Shown here: positions 6,571 to 48,605 of the stretch, in pieces | Layout: each line of letters begins with the position of its first letter | Numbering within the stretch: the first letter of the stretch is position 1 | Assembly: GCF_040144835.1 (NCBI RefSeq) | Contig: NZ_CP151632.1 | Span: forward strand, 1,612,001-1,676,000 | Direction of reading: 5' to 3' | Length of the DNA: 64,000 bases | Source: Microbacterium sp. LWS13-1.2 | GTDB taxonomy: Bacteria; Actinomycetota; Actinomycetes; Actinomycetales; Microbacteriaceae | Position numbers and translations under genes: made by a program | The notes under the pieces: generated by a model | The model's input: only the letters and a program-made list of their open reading frames with translations | Told to the model about the DNA's origin: nothing | The model's database searches: none

Positions 6571-6846
6571 ATGAGACGCGTGCACGTGACCGTCCGCGGC
6601 GACGTCCAGGGCGTGGGCTATCGGTACACGCTGCGCATGGTCGCACGCGAGGCGGGTGCGGCCGGGTGGGTGCGCAATCGCCGCGACGGCTCGGTCGAGG
6701 CCGAACTCGAGGGCACGCCCGGGCAGGTCGACGAGGTGCTCGCATGGATGGCCGAAGGCCCGCCGGGCTCCCGCGTCGAGGGCGCGACCGTGACGGATGC
6801 CGAGGCCACCGGCGAGCGCGGCTTCGAGGTGCTGCCGACGCGGTGA
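6571..6846 (+). CDS. acyP: Acylphosphatase
   Basis: Cytosolic enzyme hydrolysing carboxyl-phosphate bonds, 91 aa, the normal family size. The signature VRGDVQGVGYRYTLRMVAREAG contains the catalytic Arg that binds the phosphoryl group, and GWVRNRRDGSVEAELEG contains the catalytic Asn. The start at 6571 gives the usual short N-terminus (MRRVHVTV). It is divergent from the DUF1801 gene and convergent with the nitronate monooxygenase gene, so it is probably transcribed alone. Confidence 0.93.
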   Translation: MRRVHVTVRGDVQGVGYRYTLRMVAREAGAAGWVRNRRDGSVEAELEGTPGQVDEVLAWMAEGPPGSRVEGATVTDAEATGERGFEVLPTR

Positions 6847-40799: not shown

Positions 40800-42440
40800 T
40801 CAGGGCGGAGTCCCGAACGCGGTGAAGAACCGGTCGCGGAACTCATCCATCCGCCAGATCGGCGACCCCGCACCGGGTCGCAGACCCGGCTCCCAGCCCC
40901 ACCCGGCGACAGCCGCCAAGACGCCCGGATCCTTCGCGATGATGGTGATCGGCACGTCGCGGTCGGCATCCTCTCCGCTCACGATCGCAGCGGGCTGGTG
41001 GTCGCCGAGTGCGACCACGACGAGATCCGGGTCGTCGACGTTCTCGAGGAAAGAGAACATCGCGCCGAGCGCGTACTCGATCGACAGTCCGTAGAAGCGC
41101 TGGACGGTCTGCCGGTCCTCCCAGACGGCGCCGGCGGGGCGGCTGCGCTCGGGCTGCCCGTCGTAGACCGATCCGTCGCCGATCTCTGACCACGGCAGGA
41201 GCTCGGGAAGGGGCGCCCACGGGGTGTGCGACGACACGAGGTCGATCTCGGCCATCACCGGCCGCTGCTGATCCACGAGCTGGTGATCAGCGAAGTGCTT
41301 CCACGTGTACTGGTCGGGAATCCGCGCATAGCCGAAGGACGGCCCGCGGTAGCCGACATTCGTGGCGTCCAGCAGTGTGCCGAAGCGGTAGAACTCCCAC
41401 CCGACCGGCCAGTCCTGGGTGTTGGACGGCACTTCGCTGACCGTCCGCCAGCCGGCCGCGGCGAACGCCGCGCTCAGCGTCAGCCGGTCGCTGCGCACCA
41501 CTTCGCTGTAGACCGTCTGCGAGTCGATCCACACACCGGTCTGCAGCGTCGCATGCGCGAGCCAGCTCGCTCCGCCGTAGGTGGGCGAGGTGAGCCACGC
41601 GCTCTCGGCGGAGTACCCCTCCGCCGTCAGGACCTCCTCGCCGCGGCGGAGCACCCCACCGACGCCGTCCGAGATCTCATCGTCCTCCAGCGCGACCCGG
41701 CCGTAGCTCTCGATGAAGGCGAAGACGACGTTCTTGCCGCGCAGCGCGGTGAGGAGTCCGTCCTCGTCCACGTCGGCGAAGGGATCGCCGGCGATCGCCC
41801 GGGCGACGGTCGCTCTCGTCTCGAGCGCGGCGACGGTGCGCGAGACGGCTGAGCCGATGGCGCCGCCGGATGCCGCCGCCGCGGGCGGATCGGCGAGTCC
41901 CAGCGGCGATGCCATCGCGGCGATGGCGACCCAGACGGCGGTCACCGCCGCGATGGCCGCGCGCCCGCGTTCGGCGTGACGGCGGAGCACAGCGTCCACG
42001 CGCAGCGCGGCCCACGCCAGCGCCGCTGTCGCGGCGGCGATCACGGCCGCTGCCGCGGCGACGAGCGCGGCTGCCGGAACGCCGCCGATCGCCGCTGCGA
42101 CGACGCCGTAGGCGTCGCCGAGCTGCGGCCAGTCCAGCGGCACGAAGTGCGTGCCGAGCGCCGCCTCATAGCCGAGGTCGATGCCTGCGAGCACCATCGC
42201 CAGGCAGACGAACAGCCCGAACGCCGTCGCGAGCGCGACGCGCGGTATGCGCCACGGCGTCACCGCCAGGACGAGCAGGATCACGATCGACTCGACCGGG
42301 ATCCGCACGAGAGCCAGCGCCGACCCCGTCGCGAGGACGCCGGGCACGAGCGGCAGGACGACGAGCAGGGCGACGGATGCGACGATCCCGACGCGACCCC
42401 GCCATGCCCGGGGCCGTGGGCCGCCCGGCGAGGTGCTCAC
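40800..42440 (-). CDS. Membrane-bound alkaline phosphatase/sulfatase-superfamily protein
   Basis: Protein of 546 aa from the GTG at 42440, which overlaps the reductase stop as GTGA. Residues about 20-215 contain five or six hydrophobic segments; the rest is an extracytoplasmic sulfatase-like domain: NVVFAFIESYGRVAL, SPTYGGASWLAHATLQTGVW (likely nucleophile Ser/Thr region), MAEIDLVSSHTPWAPL and VVALGDHQPAAIVSG with metal-binding Asp/His. There is no CxPxR sulfatase signature, so it is more like LtaS-type phospho-headgroup transferases or hydrolases. It is the distal gene of a seven-gene overlapping unit and could act on its lipid product at the outer membrane face. Confidence 0.82.
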   Translation of the reverse strand: MSTSPGGPRPRAWRGRVGIVASVALLVVLPLVPGVLATGSALALVRIPVESIVILLVLAVTPWRIPRVALATAFGLFVCLAMVLAGIDLGYEAALGTHFVPLDWPQLGDAYGVVAAAIGGVPAAALVAAAAAVIAAATAALAWAALRVDAVLRRHAERGRAAIAAVTAVWVAIAAMASPLGLADPPAAAASGGAIGSAVSRTVAALETRATVARAIAGDPFADVDEDGLLTALRGKNVVFAFIESYGRVALEDDEISDGVGGVLRRGEEVLTAEGYSAESAWLTSPTYGGASWLAHATLQTGVWIDSQTVYSEVVRSDRLTLSAAFAAAGWRTVSEVPSNTQDWPVGWEFYRFGTLLDATNVGYRGPSFGYARIPDQYTWKHFADHQLVDQQRPVMAEIDLVSSHTPWAPLPELLPWSEIGDGSVYDGQPERSRPAGAVWEDRQTVQRFYGLSIEYALGAMFSFLENVDDPDLVVVALGDHQPAAIVSGEDADRDVPITIIAKDPGVLAAVAGWGWEPGLRPGAGSPIWRMDEFRDRFFTAFGTPP

Positions 42441-43180
42441 GGAATCTCTGCGGCGACCCGTCCGGCTTCGGTGCCCTGGCCCTCCAGCATGCCGAACCGA
42501 TCGGAGAGGGCGTAGCGAAGCAGGACGACGTCGCCGATCTGGCACGTGTCTGCGAGCCGGGCGCGGCGCGAGGCGGTCCACGGAAAGGCCGCGGGCCCCA
42601 CGACGCGCGGCGCGCGCGCCTCGCCGACGAAGAAGGGGGCGATGACGAGATGGAGCTCGTCGACGAGGTCCGCGCCGAGGAACTGGGTCAGCACGGTGCC
42701 GCCGCCCTCCACCATGAGGCTGCGCACTCCCCTGTGGGCGGCGAGATCATCGAGCAGCGCTGCCATCACGACGCAGTCGTCGCCGATCCCGACGACGGTC
42801 GCACGATCCCCCAGCCGGCGCCGCAGCTGCGCTTCCCGGTCCTGCGGGCAGTAGACGATGCGCGGCCCCTCCCCCGTCGTGAAGAACGCGGCGTCCGGAG
42901 CGAGGTCGCCACTCGCCGTCACGGTGACCTTCGCCGGGGACTCCCGCCGGCCCGAGGCCAGGCGTCGCGCGCGTCGGGCGGCATCCCGCACCAGCAGACG
43001 GGGGTTGTCTCGGCGCACCGTCGACGCGCCCACCATGATCGCGTCATGGAGGGCACGCACGTCGTCGACACGGTCCAGGTCGGCCGCGTTCGACATCGCC
43101 AGCCGGTGAGGCTCGGCGCTGTCGAGGTAGCCGTCGATCGACATCGCGCAACTGAGGGTCACGTAGGGTCGCTCGCTCAT
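42437..43180 (-). CDS. RibD C-terminal/DHFR-like pyrimidine reductase
   Basis: NADPH-dependent reductase of 247 aa. PYVTLSCAMSIDGYLD begins the RibD_C fold; VGASTVRRDNPRLLVR, RSLMVEGGGTVLTQFL and DELHLVIAPFFVG are the family blocks. In riboflavin synthesis this domain reduces the ribosyl side chain of a diaminopyrimidine phosphate; it lacks the deaminase domain of RibD, and no other riboflavin gene is nearby. Both ends overlap neighbouring genes by 4 bp. In this cluster it may reduce an analogous pyrimidine intermediate. Confidence 0.88.
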   Translation of the reverse strand: MSERPYVTLSCAMSIDGYLDSAEPHRLAMSNAADLDRVDDVRALHDAIMVGASTVRRDNPRLLVRDAARRARRLASGRRESPAKVTVTASGDLAPDAAFFTTGEGPRIVYCPQDREAQLRRRLGDRATVVGIGDDCVVMAALLDDLAAHRGVRSLMVEGGGTVLTQFLGADLVDELHLVIAPFFVGEARAPRVVGPAAFPWTASRRARLADTCQIGDVVLLRYALSDRFGMLEGQGTEAGRVAAEIP

Positions 43181-44112
43181 ACGGATCTCCTCCTCCCGAT
43201 GATGCCCCTCTGCCGCGGGGAACGGAAGCGGTCCGCCAGCAGTGCTATGGCTCCGGGGGCGACGGCGACGACGTTCAGCACGCCGAACGCGGTCGAGACG
43301 GCGACGCCTGCGGCGGCACCCAGCCCCGCAAGGGCGAAGGCGGCGGCAGCGACCGCCTCGCGCGGCCCCCAGCCCCCGATGCTGAGCGGGATCGCGGCCC
43401 CGCCGAGCACGATCAGCGCCACGAGGGCGAGTTCGGCGGCTCCGGCGTGCACCCCCGCCGCCAGACCCGCGACGACGAAGGTGGCCGCGTGCGCAGCGAC
43501 GACGACGACCGACGCACCGGTGATCGCGAGCAGCGTCAGCGGCCGGGACACCACGGGCCGCAGCAGGCGGTACTCGCGGTCGAGCAGCGAGCGCCCCCGC
43601 CGACTGAAGGCCACGGCGGCGACGGCGGCGAGCGCGACCACGACGACGCCTCCGCTGAGCCACGCCAGCGGAGCCAGCGGCGAGGTCAGCCCCAGCGGGA
43701 GCAGGATCGCGAGGGTCAGCACGATCTGCACGAGCTGACCGGCGATGCGTTCGGCCGCCACCGCGCGCGCGGCGAGATCCAGCCGGTCGTGGTCGCTGCC
43801 GTGCAGATACGCGCGCTGCACGTCGCCCACGATCCCACCGGGAAGCACGGTGTTGAGGAACTGCGAGCGGTAGTAGGCGGTGAACGCGTCCCCCCACGCC
43901 AGCGGCAGGCCGAACCCCGTCGAGACCAGCCGCCACCTCCAGGCCGCAGCGGCTGTCGCGACCGCCGCGAGCGCGACGGCGGCAAGGATCGTCCACGGCG
44001 AGATGGAGGCGAGTCCTTCCACGAATGGCGCGGCGCCGACCACGGCAGCCGTCGCGACCACGACCGCGAGCGCCGCCACGATCCGCACCGCCATCCGCAG
44101 CCGAGGGGGCAT
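43177..44112 (-). CDS. Lysylphosphatidylglycerol synthase TM-region/UPF0104 family membrane protein
   Basis: Integral membrane protein of 311 aa, start at 44112, with about eight hydrophobic segments. The family markers are YYRSQFLNTVLPGGIVGDVQRAYLHG (residues about 60-85) and IPLSIGGWGPREAVAAAAF in the last third. This fold forms the flippase part of MprF and occurs alone in glycolipid and cell-wall clusters. It lies between a methyltransferase gene (5 bp away) and the RibD-like gene (4-bp overlap). A role moving a lipid-linked product across the membrane is inferred. Confidence 0.85.
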   Translation of the reverse strand: MPPRLRMAVRIVAALAVVVATAAVVGAAPFVEGLASISPWTILAAVALAAVATAAAAWRWRLVSTGFGLPLAWGDAFTAYYRSQFLNTVLPGGIVGDVQRAYLHGSDHDRLDLAARAVAAERIAGQLVQIVLTLAILLPLGLTSPLAPLAWLSGGVVVVALAAVAAVAFSRRGRSLLDREYRLLRPVVSRPLTLLAITGASVVVVAAHAATFVVAGLAAGVHAGAAELALVALIVLGGAAIPLSIGGWGPREAVAAAAFALAGLGAAAGVAVSTAFGVLNVVAVAPGAIALLADRFRSPRQRGIIGRRRSV

Positions 44113-44117
44113 GCTTC

Positions 44118-44948
44118 TCAGCCGGGCCACGCCAGCAGGTCCTCGTGCGACACGGTGACCCGCAGCCGGCCGGCTGCGGCCTGCGCCTGACGACGCCGGC
44201 GGTACGCCGCCGCGTCCTCGGCGAGCTCCGGCCGCCATTCCACGGCGGCAGCGACCCACCCGTCCAGCCACTCCGCGACGAGGGGACCGTCCCGCCGCTT
44301 CAGGCGCCACGGCGTCGCCGCTCGGCGCACGTTCCAGCCCGCGTCGGCGAAGAGACCCGCTGTCACGGCGACCGCGTCGGGCCCCAGCATCCGCCGCCCG
44401 TCGACGTCGCGTCGCTGGTGGTCGTCGAACGCGGCGCCGAGGGCACGCTCGACCGCATCGTGCGCCTCGGACGGCCGCAGCCTCACCGCCCCGGTGACGG
44501 TGAGGCTGAAGAGCGCGGGAGCGCCCGCGGCGACACAGGCTGCGACGACGTGGGCGGCCTCGGCCCGCGTGATCACATCGAGGAGAGCGGATGCCGTCAC
44601 CGCCGCGGCCCCCCGGAAGGTCTCGCTCGGGAGTTCGGCGAGGTCCTCGACGACGACGTGCGCGTCGACGGGCCGGCCGGCGGCGTCGGCGACCGCGCTG
44701 AGGTCGAGGTGCTCCACGATCTCAGCGTCCCCGTCGCGGAGCACCCACTGCTGCGGCCCCGGAAGCCGCGGCGCGAGCCAGCGGGTCATCGACCCGGTTC
44801 CCGCGCCGAGGTCGTGCAGCACCACAGGCGCGGACACTGCGGCCAGCATGCGGGCGAGCTCGTGTGCGAGCTCCGGAGAGCGAGCAGCATCGTCGGCCGG
44901 CGCCCGCAGCGCGAGCCAGCCGGCTGTCGCCGTCGAGATCGAGGTCAT
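44118..44948 (-). CDS. SAM-dependent class I methyltransferase
   Basis: Protein of 276 aa. Motif I is VVLHDLGAGTGSMTRWLA (residues about 40-57), the acidic end of strand two is VLRDGDAEIVEHL, and VVVEDLAELPSETFRGAAAVTASALLDVIT supplies post-I and motif II. The C-terminal half contains a helical region with RRRRQAQAAAGRLRV. ATG 44948 overlaps the glycosyltransferase stop. The acceptor is unknown; a sugar or pyrimidine/pteridine moiety made by this cluster is plausible. Confidence 0.85.
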   Translation of the reverse strand: MTSISTATAGWLALRAPADDAARSPELAHELARMLAAVSAPVVLHDLGAGTGSMTRWLAPRLPGPQQWVLRDGDAEIVEHLDLSAVADAAGRPVDAHVVVEDLAELPSETFRGAAAVTASALLDVITRAEAAHVVAACVAAGAPALFSLTVTGAVRLRPSEAHDAVERALGAAFDDHQRRDVDGRRMLGPDAVAVTAGLFADAGWNVRRAATPWRLKRRDGPLVAEWLDGWVAAAVEWRPELAEDAAAYRRRRQAQAAAGRLRVTVSHEDLLAWPG

Positions 44949-45958
44949 GCCGCCTCCAGTGCGCGGGCGACGTCTGCCACGGTGTCGGACCACGTCGGCA
45001 GTGAGGTGCGGGCCACGACCGCCTCGCGCCGGAGTCGTGCCCGCAGCGGCGGGTCCGACATCCACTTCTCCAAGGCATCGGCCAGCGCGGCCGGGTCGTC
45101 GGGGCGGACGAGGAGACCGCCCCCGCCGGCGAGCGCGTCGGGTATGCCGCCGGCCTCCGAGCCGACGACCGGGATCCCCCTGGCTCGCGCATCGGCGATC
45201 GCCATGCCCCAGCTCTCGACCCGCGACGGCGCGATGAGCAGTGCGCTCCGGTCGTATGCCGCGGCGAGGCCGTCCTCGTCGAGGACGCCGGTGAGCTGCA
45301 CCCGGCCGTCGAACGCCGCCGCATGCTCGGCGATGGCTGCGGCGAACCGCGGGAACGGCTCGGACGACCCGACGATGGCGCAGGTCCAGTCCGGCGTTCG
45401 CAGCCGTGCGAGCGCGTCGAGCAGCGTGTCCTGCCCCTTGTGCGGCGCCAGCACCCCCACGCAGAGCAGGGCCTTGTCGGATGCCGGCGCGCCGGCATCC
45501 ACATGCTGCACGCCCGGGACGGCGACGGTGATCCGCGACGGATCGGTCAGTCCGCGCCGCACCAGCTCACCGGCGGTCCAGCGGCTCGTCACGATCACCG
45601 CGCGGGCGACCCCCAGCGCGCGGCGCTCGGCATCCACCGCAGCAGCCGTCGCGTCGGGGAACGCGGCCACCACCATGTGGGCCAGCATCACCAGGCGCAG
45701 GCGCGACGCCTCCTCTTCGAGAGCCGCCGGCACCCAGCCGGCCACGAGTCCGTCCACGAGCACCAGCGTGTCGTCGTCTGCACCGCGGAGAGCGGATGCC
45801 GCTTCCCCGGCATCCGCAACCTCGAGAGCCTCGACGGTCCAGCCGCGCGCGGCCAGCCCGTCGCGGATGTGCCGGTCGTAGACGTTGCCGCCGCTCACGC
45901 GACGCGGATCGTCGACCCCTTCGGGGGCGAGGAAACGGACCGAGGGTCCGCTCGTCAC
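44945..45958 (-). CDS. GT4-family glycosyltransferase
   Basis: Glycosyltransferase of 337 aa from the GTG at 45958, which overlaps the pterin-synthase-like stop. The N-terminal domain has [18 protein letters not shown]; the C-terminal donor-binding domain has [53 protein letters not shown], the E-x7-E type motif of GT-B retaining enzymes. No signal peptide. It lies between methyltransferase and pterin-synthase-like genes with overlaps on both sides, which strongly suggests a sugar is attached in the same pathway. Confidence 0.9.
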
Positions 45959-46350
45959 AACGCCACCTCGTACGACGCCCAGGCCACGTGCGATTCGTGG
46001 AGGGTGACCGCGATGCCCGTCAGGCGCGCTGCGCCGACGGCCCCGTCGCGCACGCGCGCCGCCAGCCGGTCGCCCACGATCTGGCACAGCCGCTCCGTCG
46101 TGGTGTTGACGCCGTCGAAGTCCGGCTCGTCATCGAGGTTGCGGTACGTCAGCGCGCCGACGATCTCGCGCATCAGGTCGCCCGCGCGGCCGATGTCGAC
46201 CACCACCCCGTCGGCGTCCAGCTCGTCGGCGCGGAACGTGGCGTCGACGAGGTACGTCGCGCCGTGCAGCTGCTGCGCGGGTCCGAAGACGTCGCCGCGC
46301 AGGCTGTGGGCGATCATCAGGTGGTCGCGGACGGTGACGCTGAACGTCAT
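45955..46350 (-). CDS. 6-pyruvoyl-tetrahydropterin synthase-like protein with altered active site
   Basis: Protein of 131 aa in the PTPS/QueD fold. [30 protein letters not shown] aligns with the family metal/catalytic region, but the usual HGH reads HGA and the upstream catalytic Cys is absent; [38 protein letters not shown] and [12 protein letters not shown] remain. One zinc ligand and the general base are therefore lost, so it probably does not make pyruvoyl- or carboxy-tetrahydropterin. Both ends overlap neighbouring genes by 4 bp. It may bind or transform a pterin-like intermediate in a new way. Confidence 0.85.
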
Positions 46351-47381
46351 GCGGTGCTCCAATCGATCGTGTGGCAGAGTTCGCCGGCCGTGCCCGCGGC
46401 GAGTGCGGCCGTGATCTCGGGCAGCTGCCGCCAGGACGATGTGCCGCCCAGCAGCAGGTCGAACGCCGGATCCTCCAGCAGCCGAAGGGCGACCTCCAGG
46501 CGATCGCGGGTCGTGCGCGTCGACCGCCGGCGGGATGACACCGCGCCGACCTGACTGGAGCGGATCGTGAGCCGCCGCGAGTGGAAGTCGGCGCCGAGCG
46601 TGATCGGCACCGGCCGGCTGCCGTACCAGCTCGCGACGATCACCTCTCCGTCGGTGGGCGCCAGCCGCAGGGCGAGCTCGAGTCCCGCTCCGCTGCCGCT
46701 CGCCTCGATCACGACATCCGCCTCGGGCAGCGGGTCGGCCGGGGCGAGGGCGAACTCGGCACCGAGTGCTCGAGCGAGCGGCGCCTTCGCCGCGTCGACA
46801 TCGACGAGGGTCACCTCGACGCCCGGGATGCCGCACGCCACGCGCGCGATGGCGCATCCGATCATGCCTGCGCCGACGACGACGACGCGGTCGCCGATCA
46901 GCGGAGCGGCATCCCACAGCACGTTGACCGCCGTCTCGACCGCCCCCGCCAGCACGGCGCGACGGGGCGGAACGCCCTCGGGCACCGAGACGAGCGCCTC
47001 GGCGGGGACGACGTAGCGCGACTGGTGCGGGACCAGGGCGAACACGGTGCGCCCCACGAGCTGTGCCGGACCGTCGTCCACCATGCCGACGTTGAGGTAT
47101 CCGTACTTCACCGGGAACGGGAAGTCTCCGCCTTGGAGCGGAGCCCGCATGCGCTCCCGCTCGGACTCCGGCACCTCACCGCGCGCGACGAGCCCCTCCG
47201 TCCCGCGGCTCACGCCGGTCCAGAGCGTCCGGACCGATGCCTCGCTGTCGGACGGGCCGGGGAGCGGCTCCGACCGGAACTCGCCCTGCCCGGGGCCGAT
47301 CGTCCACCATGCGTGCGCGGCATCCTCAGGATCGGGATGAACCGCGGCAGGTACCTGCGTCGTGTCCCCCGTGACCGCCAT
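46347..47381 (-). CDS. Zinc-binding-type medium-chain dehydrogenase
   Basis: MDR-superfamily oxidoreductase of 344 aa. The N-terminal half has [19 protein letters not shown] and [15 protein letters not shown]; the NAD(P) fold is [19 protein letters not shown] followed by [19 protein letters not shown]. The usual GHE zinc motif is replaced by GTE, as in several sugar- or pseudosugar-acting dehydrogenases. First gene of the seven-gene minus-strand unit. Its start is only 20 bp from the divergent CDP-alcohol phosphatidyltransferase, so both must share a very compact promoter region. Confidence 0.87.
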
Positions 47382-47401
47382 AGGGAGTACACGGAGCGCA
47401 C

Positions 47402-48169
47402 ATGGAAAAGGTTCAGTGGGTCCCTTGGTGGTGGGTGGCGGCCGGGGCGGGCGGACTGGTCGCGATCGGAGCCGCCGTCCCGCTGTCGCCGACGGCGGTG
47501 GCGGTCGGACTCGCCTACCTGATGGTGTCCACCGTGCTGCTGACCGTCGGGCTCCGCCGTCGGGGCGCGCTTCGGTTCGGACCCGCGAACGCGGTGACCG
47601 CGACCCGCTCGATGCTCGTCGGCCTCGTCACCGCACTGACCGTCGCGGCGCTCGAGGGCGCGGCGGTCGAGGGCGCGGCATCCACCGTGCTGTTCGTCAC
47701 ACTCGTCGCCTGCGCTCTCGCGCTCGACGGTGTCGACGGGTACGTCGCCCGTCGGACGGCAAGCGAGAGCGCACTCGGCGCCCGATTCGACATGGAGGTC
47801 GACGCGTTCCTGCTGCTCGTACTGTGCGTGTACGACGTGAGGTTCGTCGGCTGGTGGGTGCTGTCGATCGGCCTGCTGCGGTACGCGTTCGTGGTCGCCG
47901 GTGCGGGGCTGCCGTGGATGCGCCGCACGTTGCCGCCGCGATACTGGCGCAAGGTCGTCACCGCCGTCTGCGGCATCGCCCTGACCATCGTCGCGGCGCA
48001 GGTGCTGCCGCCGGAGGCGAATCTGGCCGTCGCGGCCGCGGCGCTGCTGCTGATGCTCGAGTCGTTCGGCCGCGACGTCACGTGGCTCGTCCGGTTGAAC
48101 CTCAGCGGTCGCGCGCTCGTTTCCCTCGAGAGGGCCTCGACGACCTCACCTCCACCGGAGAGCAGGTAG
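47402..48169 (+). CDS. CDP-alcohol phosphatidyltransferase family protein
   Basis: Membrane enzyme of 255 aa that transfers a phosphatidyl or phospho-alcohol group from CDP-alcohol to an acceptor alcohol. The complete catalytic signature D-x2-DG-x2-AR-x8-G-x3-D-x3-D is present, starting DGVDGYVARR and ending GARFDMEVD (about residues 118-143). Six hydrophobic segments. Divergent from the pterin-synthase-like operon with a 20-bp gap and followed 4 bp later by a small membrane gene. Likely supplies the lipid or phosphodiester linkage for the cluster product. Confidence 0.88.
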   Translation: MEKVQWVPWWWVAAGAGGLVAIGAAVPLSPTAVAVGLAYLMVSTVLLTVGLRRRGALRFGPANAVTATRSMLVGLVTALTVAALEGAAVEGAASTVLFVTLVACALALDGVDGYVARRTASESALGARFDMEVDAFLLLVLCVYDVRFVGWWVLSIGLLRYAFVVAGAGLPWMRRTLPPRYWRKVVTAVCGIALTIVAAQVLPPEANLAVAAAALLLMLESFGRDVTWLVRLNLSGRALVSLERASTTSPPPESR

Positions 48170-48173
48170 CACC

Positions 48174-48605
48174 ATGACGACCGCAGCCACCGATACCGCC
48201 GGGCGCGTGCTCTGGACGATGCGCATCCTCAGCGCGATCGCCCTCCTCGCCGCAGGCGCCATCCACCTGTTCCTGGTCTTCAACGGCACCGGCGGCATCC
48301 TGGGGGTGATGTTCGTCCTCAATGCCATCGCCGCACTGGTGCTCGCAGTCGGGATGCTGGTGCTTCACGGCCGGCTGCTGCAGCTGGCGACGGTGCTGAG
48401 CCTGCTGTTCCTCATCGCCACGCTGCTCGCCCTGATCCTCGCGCTGACGGTGGGGCTGTTCGGCATCACCTCGTCCTGGGACATGATGCTCGTCCCCGAG
48501 ACCGTCATCGTCGAGTCCATCGGCATCGTGATCCTGGCCATCACGACGGTGCTGGTGTTCCGCAGCACGCCGGCGACGGTCCCGACGAGACGCAAGGGCG
48601 TCTAA
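48174..48605 (+). CDS. Small four-helix membrane protein of unknown function
   Basis: Protein of 143 aa with four hydrophobic segments (about 17-37, 42-63, 67-93, 107-128) and short polar ends. No family recognised. It starts 4 bp after the CDP-alcohol phosphatidyltransferase and is followed by a strong terminator, so the two form a small operon. Confidence 0.7.
   Translation: MTTAATDTAGRVLWTMRILSAIALLAAGAIHLFLVFNGTGGILGVMFVLNAIAALVLAVGMLVLHGRLLQLATVLSLLFLIATLLALILALTVGLFGITSSWDMMLVPETVIVESIGIVILAITTVLVFRSTPATVPTRRKGV

Follow-up and report, generated by a model that had tools for sequence, protein, structure and literature searches.

A conserved Microbacterium gene cluster that probably converts an early riboflavin building block to a sugar-bearing, methylated compound

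The eight genes described here lie in a 64,000-nucleotide stretch of Microbacterium sp. LWS13-1.2 (NCBI RefSeq assembly GCF_040144835.1, contig NZ_CP151632.1, positions 1,612,001 to 1,676,000), which we call the window and whose coordinates are used below. They belong to one conserved unit, patchily distributed and sometimes plasmid-borne. As judged from sequence comparison, this gene set probably converts an early vitamin B2 building block to a sugar-bearing, methylated and, in the full form of the cluster, membrane-linked compound. All eight open reading frames (ORFs) are intact, with zero internal stops, and are listed with their short names:

47402 to 48169, plus strand: CDP-alcohol phosphatidyltransferase-type membrane protein (CDPOH), 255 aa; PF01066 (CDP-OH_P_transf), 51.6 bits, cut-off 22
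46347 to 47381, minus strand: zinc-type medium-chain dehydrogenase (ZDH), BchC-like, 344 aa, ATG at 47381; PF00107 (ADH_zinc_N), 36.7 bits, cut-off 31.8
45955 to 46350, minus strand: PTPS-like protein, orthologue of SCO6650, 131 aa; PF01242, 86 bits, cut-off 22.4
44945 to 45958, minus strand: GT4 glycosyltransferase, 337 aa; PF00534 (Glycos_transf_1), 98.2 bits
44118 to 44948, minus strand: class I S-adenosylmethionine-dependent methyltransferase (MT), 276 aa; Methyltransf_25 below cut-off
43177 to 44130, minus strand: UPF0104/LPG-synthase-TM flippase-like membrane protein, 317 aa; PF03706, 107.5 bits
42437 to 43180, minus strand: RibD_C reductase, 247 aa; PF01872, 147.4 bits
40800 to 42440, minus strand: membrane alkaline-phosphatase/sulfatase-fold protein (PHOS), 546 aa; no Pfam match of its own

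The minus-strand block spans 47381 to 40800, with 4-bp overlaps at five of its six junctions; the remaining one, between MT and UPF0104, is a 13-bp overlap with a GTG start or a 5-bp gap if a later in-frame ATG is used. A preliminary description of this DNA had reported seven minus-strand genes mostly linked by 4-bp overlaps, which stands, and a start at 47378, which has to be moved to the ATG at 47381; the 20-bp gap that it gave between the divergent CDPOH (plus) and ZDH (minus) is confirmed. Its family calls were borne out by Pfam matches over the cut-off for six proteins (CDP-OH_P_transf, ADH_zinc_N, PTPS, Glycos_transf_1, LPG_synthase_TM and RibD_C). For MT the match remained sub-threshold, the DxGxGxG residues being invariant across 24 aligned members, and PHOS was recognised only through a homologue at another locus (L068:6223-8025), which matches Sulfatase PF00884 at 38.4 bits (cut-off 25). 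The top NCBIfam match of ZDH, BchC, scored 44.1 bits against a cut-off of 291.25.

Loci of relatives were collected with the PTPS-like protein as the bait, and were therefore chosen by PTPS similarity; some of them end at contig ends, so that gene counts per locus are lower bounds. In the genus sample, 23 of 119 Microbacterium genomes, the present one included, matched the bait at 1e-15. The order sample gave 25 matching genomes of 149 at E 1e-3; the weak and probably spurious match in G069 (E 1.6e-4), which reads like a sugar-phosphate mutase, was dropped, and the better count is 24 of 149. At 1e-15, 39 of 296 genomes in the phylum sample matched, ordinary PTPS proteins being counted among them. 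A scan of species genomes returned at least 570 confirmed relatives, 80 of which were kept, and 21 records of a plasmid collection matched, the 16 examined coming from Actinomycetes, Alpha- and Gammaproteobacteria and Haloarcula. Among the matches listed, the closest named relative is Microbacterium yannicii, with a PTPS-like protein 94% identical to that of the window.

Across 100 loci (20 from the order and 80 from named species; tblastn, 1e-4), ZDH was found in 100, GT4 in 99, CDPOH in 84, UPF0104 in 83, MT in 80, RibD_C in 54 and PHOS in 26. Adding proteobacterial queries and 15 plasmid loci gave a set of 115 loci, with ZDH in 112, GT4 in 110, CDPOH in 91, MT in 90, UPF0104 in 89, GTP cyclohydrolase II (GCHII) in 73, RibD_C in 65, a creatininase in 40 and PHOS in 30. 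The preliminary description had made its proposal depend on these genes travelling together, and they do. The cluster spans Actinomycetota and Proteobacteria, and a reduced form is present on a Haloarcula plasmid. Within Microbacterium, 18 of the 20 loci examined (from 22 other matching genomes) carry all eight genes in identical order; of the other two, L268 has no MT and has PHOS on the opposite side, and L267 consists of ZDH-PTPS-GT4-RibD_C only. None of five control loci around ordinary PTPS/QueD genes contained ZDH, GT4, MT, UPF0104 or CDPOH, and two of them (L207 and L210) had a GCHII with a weak RibD_C match 5-7 kb away. Chance clustering was rejected on the basis of these control loci and of the genus-wide gene order. 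The related explanation that the genes are merely adjacent and share no common pathway is very unlikely. Three of the 115 loci, on Streptomyces plasmids (L154, L159 and L161), do have the PTPS-like gene without any other member, as that explanation would predict; against it stand the largely constant order across several phyla, the gene fusions, and the provision of RibD_C by another part of the genome where the locus has none. The solitary genes are located near BTAD regulators, cupins and metallo-β-lactamase (MBL) hydrolases, which is a different context. Two further local arrangements were seen on plasmids and in Rhodobacterales: a cytochrome b561-type gene adjoins RibD_C in Rhizobiaceae and Thiodictyon plasmid clusters (L148, L149, L156, L160 and L294), and the Rhodobacterales clusters L153 and L158 have no adjacent GT4 and a PfkB/ribokinase-type sugar kinase beside the core.

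The PTPS-like protein of the window is an orthologue of SCO6650 of Streptomyces coelicolor (PDB 3d7j, E 3.2e-55), a protein that we take to lack both zinc and PTPS activity. The preliminary description had mentioned a PTPS homologue linked to a GCHII in that species, and both the orthology and the presence of GCHII in 73 of 115 loci agree with this link. Key residues were tallied in 120 cluster-type PTPS-like sequences, among them those of the three solitary genes. Ala stands in place of the catalytic Cys in every one, the catalytic His has always been replaced (by Tyr in 117), the catalytic Asp is kept in 4, and the position of the third zinc His is occupied by Ala (118) or Val (2); both anchoring Glu residues are kept in all 120. 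The window sequence reads LHGATY and TYRNLD and has thus lost the same residues as its relatives. Nine sequences of a further family, f34, all keep the zinc His and all have Cys replaced by Ala and the catalytic His by Tyr; likewise, the Haloarcula protein keeps its zinc His residues and has lost the catalytic Cys and His. Five of five ordinary PTPS/QueD proteins retain the catalytic Cys, Asp and His and the zinc His. The roles assigned here to the anchoring Glu and to the other residues are those that we assume from known PTPS structures. Similarity to PF01242 and TIGR03367, and the public annotation as 6-carboxytetrahydropterin synthase, would be explained if the protein were a true PTPS or QueD acting in tetrahydrobiopterin, queuosine or deazapurine synthesis. 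We rejected this function on the catalytic-residue counts in the 120 and 9 sequences, to which are added the loss of the third zinc His in the cluster type, a QueD score of 42.4 bits against an equivalog cut-off of 89.25, and the fact that the recurring cluster partner is GCHII (no search was aimed at GCHI); it is hardly credible as an explanation. Instead, the retained Glu residues and the lost catalytic ones suggest a family that should bind a 2-amino-4-oxo pyrimidine or a pterin but not perform PTPS chemistry.

The pyrimidine side of the cluster is indicated by GCHII and RibD_C. These two are encoded in one reading frame in seven loci, with 39-141 bp between the matches and no stop, and Pfam found both domains in the two fused proteins checked. 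In four genomes (G137, G141, G080 and G006, with loci L046, L048, L049 and L053), the fused cluster copy is the only GCHII. The idea that such genomes have no riboflavin synthesis was refuted, since lumazine synthase (RibH) and DHBP synthase were found in 10 of 10 genomes searched, these four included. Because four genomes bearing riboflavin genes have no other GCHII, the cluster GCHII very likely makes the riboflavin precursor 2,5-diamino-6-ribosylamino-pyrimidinone phosphate (DARP), and in these genomes it presumably feeds riboflavin too. As noted in the preliminary description, no GTP cyclohydrolase was found in the 64-kb window; the genome's single PF00925 match, RibAB, is at 3.93 Mb (window, 1.612-1.676 Mb), and RibH maps near it, also at 3.93 Mb. 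With RibAB as the only source in this genome, the window cluster presumably takes its DARP from the common pool. A separate observation is that the Geodermatophilus genome of locus L065 (G564) has seven GCHII matches.

RibD_C is consistently supplied, either from the cluster or from elsewhere in the genome: nine of 11 genomes without a close RibD_C in the locus have a copy of 53-60% identity elsewhere, and the remaining two (L063 and L130) have a divergent RibD_C inside the cluster. In the window protein, PF01872 spans residues 5-220 of 247, and no further Pfam match and no deaminase domain were found. Its best curated similarity is to TIGR01508, the archaeal/fungal diaminopyrimidine reductase, at 131.1 bits (equivalog cut-off, 186.45 bits), and its best PDB matches (5xux, 5xv5, 5xv0 and 5xv2) are titled only 'Conserved protein'; we take these to be an archaeal Rib7. 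By sequence, then, the reductase appears closest to the archaeal diaminopyrimidine reductases. It resembles ArfC/Rib7 in having no deaminase domain and differs in its sub-cut-off score and non-riboflavin gene context. The one pointer to DARP as its putative substrate is the fusion with GCHII in the seven loci, all of one clade. Close relatives of this RibD_C have a P-x-K-V-T-V-T-like segment where more distant members have R-V-V-(I/L)-D, a difference that may reflect a different substrate end.

Since GCHII and RibD_C belong to riboflavin synthesis and the cluster GCHII is the sole copy in four genomes, the cluster could serve an auxiliary supply or modification of flavin or F420, in which the extra GCHII and RibD_C raise flavin production and the other genes modify or export it. 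This is unlikely. Annotation of the plasmid loci examined shows neither lumazine synthase nor riboflavin synthase (L157 and L160 being unannotated), all 10 genomes searched have their single RibH match outside the cluster, at another place in the genome, and neither a pterin-site protein nor a GT4 has a recognised role in flavin synthesis. Compared with a riboflavin operon, the window cluster is without lumazine synthase and without a deaminase domain, and it also has no GCHII.

A creatininase-family gene recurs as an extra member of the cluster in several groups, including Streptomyces, Actinomadura and one Pseudonocardia. Its presence agrees with the residue at one switch position of GCHII (Tyr105 in E. 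coli numbering); presumably, SCO6655 makes the formylated intermediate (FAPy) because this Tyr is Met. Among 68 in-cluster GCHIIs, the switch residue is Met (34) or His (4) in all 38 with a creatininase neighbour and Tyr in all 30 without one. Four proteobacterial plasmid GCHIIs without creatininase also have Tyr, as do 18 distinct GCHIIs from outside clusters, and six further class-level loci gave Met in the four readable creatininase loci, Tyr in the one without creatininase and one unreadable case. The agreement is suggestive of a link between the creatininase and a FAPy-stopping GCHII. The best match of the relatives' cluster creatininase is MftE (142.7 bits); ArfB matches were weak, at 39 and 37.1 bits against a cut-off of 180. 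The creatininases of loci L295, L296, L297 and L298, which share 57-61% identity with that of the cluster, each directly follow a gene of about 1.2 kb annotated as hypothetical or sporulation-associated, and these two genes are perhaps another conserved pair.

The Streptomyces form of the cluster offers the closest comparison. In the SCO6650-SCO6655 region of S. coelicolor, the PTPS-like protein is orthologous to that of the window and SCO6655 is the GCHII; in S. tendae (L062), GT4, MT, UPF0104 and creatininase stand between PTPS and GCHII, an order that would fit the SCO numbering from 6650 to 6655. A creatininase and a Met-switch GCHII inside the cluster mark the Streptomyces form. The window has neither, and its operon includes RibD_C and PHOS; in the L062 genome, the close RibD_C copy is located outside the cluster. 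In the section of PMC2853524 that deals with it, SCO6655 is given as a GTP cyclohydrolase II whose expression anticorrelates with the predicted riboflavin flux, and most genes in the table that lists it are upregulated in stationary phase (PMC2853524). For the creatininase, a counterpart is BrbF of Sinorhizobium, described in the part of PMC9478397 concerned with it as a creatininase-family formamidase that converts FAPy to DARP and serves riboflavin, its FAPy-forming partner cyclohydrolase being, in the authors' words there, yet to be found. The same reaction is what we propose for the cluster creatininase of the relatives, the window having none; the two are likened by family, and differ in that BrbF serves riboflavin.

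The lipid-type genes form a second, more variable part. CDPOH and PHOS share a frame in six loci, with 39-174 bp between the matches, and for this reason we regard them as a pair. CDPOH matches CDP-alcohol transferases in the PDB, and all residues of its motif DG(x)2AR(x)8G(x)3D(x)3D are invariant in 25 aligned members. In PHOS, Glu244, Ser292, His405, Asp480 and His481 are invariant in 12 aligned members, with a spacing that we take to be much like that of LtaS. The sulfatase profile did not match the window PHOS or an Agrobacterium homologue, and the L134 fusion fell below the cut-off; PHOS had no sequence match in the PDB. The likeness to headgroup synthesis of the PgsA plus LtaS type is drawn through the CDPOH-PHOS fusion. 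We attribute a same-frame case of ZDH and GT4 in L050, where PTPS lies between the two, to a chance open frame and do not count it.

Several loci have the core without these lipid-type genes. RibD_C-ZDH-PTPS-GT4 is found in nine of nine f34 loci, and L090 and L060 (the latter on a short contig) hold ZDH-PTPS-GT4-RibD_C, as does L267. GT4 and a methyltransferase share a frame in three loci, and in the f34 locus L197 they are one protein; a FolB (dihydroneopterin aldolase) gene stands divergently beside the core of that locus (L197:7266-7823), and its ORF matches eight other loci. A CDPOH orthologue was looked for at E 1e-8 in 12 genomes, chosen, except G000, for having no CDPOH near the core, and was absent from nine (seven f34 genomes, G510 and the L090 genome). 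On account of these minimal loci and these nine genomes, the lipid module is accessory, and no lipid gene is universal. The product might then be a soluble glycosylated, methylated pterin or pyrimidine (a cofactor, pigment, signal or defence metabolite), with the membrane genes serving export or a separate lipid. The loci restricted to ZDH-PTPS-GT4-RibD_C, the uniform f34 core with no CDPOH orthologue in seven of seven genomes searched, and the lack of a universal lipid gene all favour this explanation. It has to contend with the presence of CDPOH in 91 of 115 loci from several phyla, with its fusion to PHOS, and with genomes G106 and G005, which have no CDPOH near the core yet have an orthologue elsewhere. 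We hold a soluble product to be possible but doubtful.

We favour instead, mainly because of the conservation of the gene set and the genomes with a sole GCHII, a cluster whose pathway branches off at DARP and leads to a methylated glycoside, which the complete version would link to a lipid. Its reactions and product are predictions from co-occurrence, gene order, fusions and residue loss. GCHII, in the cluster in many relatives and the housekeeping RibAB here, would open GTP toward DARP, and the stand-alone RibD_C would reduce DARP, like archaeal ArfC/Rib7. The PTPS-like protein, no longer a PTPS, would bind the resulting pyrimidine or a derived pteridine, ZDH would oxidise it, and GT4 and MT would attach a sugar and a methyl group, respectively. 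Where the cluster is complete, CDPOH would link the product to lipid via a phosphodiester, the UPF0104 protein would move the lipid-linked product across the membrane, and PHOS would cleave or transfer the phosphate head group outside. For this statement as a whole, core and lipid end together, we see about equal chances of its being right or wrong; we are more confident of the core and less so of the lipid end. The most coherent picture would be the making of a headgroup, followed by its attachment, flipping and processing. The preliminary description had proposed an envelope lipid or cofactor with a methylated, glycosylated pyrimidine or pteridine unit; the GCHII-RibD_C fusions support the pyrimidine side, and glycosyl and methyl transfer genes are present in most loci, while the lipid part is not sustained by the minimal loci, from which lipid-type genes are absent.

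Several observations weigh against a single DARP-derived, lipid-linked pathway. All seven GCHII-RibD_C fusions fall in one starred clade of the tree and may be a single event. The match between creatininase and switch residue amounts to one change on the first GCHII tree (from which four loci lacking a recognisable core motif and two loci beside an ordinary PTPS were left out), so that the agreement is suggestive rather than statistical proof; a second tree is compatible with either one change or two. Counting the switch agreement or the fusions as many independent cases was rejected on these grounds. Creatininases of 57-61% identity to the cluster's are located beside no cyclohydrolase in five of five annotated plasmid contexts examined (of 343 matching records). 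The second-locus CDPOH of G106 and G005 stands without other cluster members. To these are added the nine genomes without a CDPOH orthologue, the sub-cut-off TIGR01508 score of RibD_C and the three solitary PTPS-like genes.

A more far-reaching version of the DARP-branch proposal is in our view less likely than not. It would have the cluster make a new class of membrane lipid, with a GTP-derived ribityl-type pyrimidine or pteridine head group, glycosylated and methylated, made from DARP and coupled to CDP-diacylglycerol or the corresponding archaeal compound, with UPF0104 as the flippase and an LtaS-like enzyme for the processing, the pathway being spread horizontally across Actinomycetota and Pseudomonadota and reduced in haloarchaea. 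A pathway found in 23 of 119 genomes of the genus and on bacterial and haloarchaeal plasmids would mean a metabolite class missing from current maps. It might likewise account for the retention in Streptomyces of a cyclohydrolase II that presumably stops at the formyl intermediate. The cluster GCHIIs might moreover suggest candidates for the FAPy-forming partner of BrbF that is described as missing in the relevant part of PMC9478397. Literature searches returned no account of the cluster; most subscription journals lie outside their coverage, so the cluster is not thereby shown to be undescribed.

One further ORF adjoins the eight genes:

48174 to 48605, plus strand: 143-aa protein beyond CDPOH; no match in Pfam or NCBIfam

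This protein was matched in 17 of the 20 Microbacterium cluster loci, directly beyond CDPOH in 16 of them, and in 7 of the 100 wider loci, and is possibly an additional cluster member.

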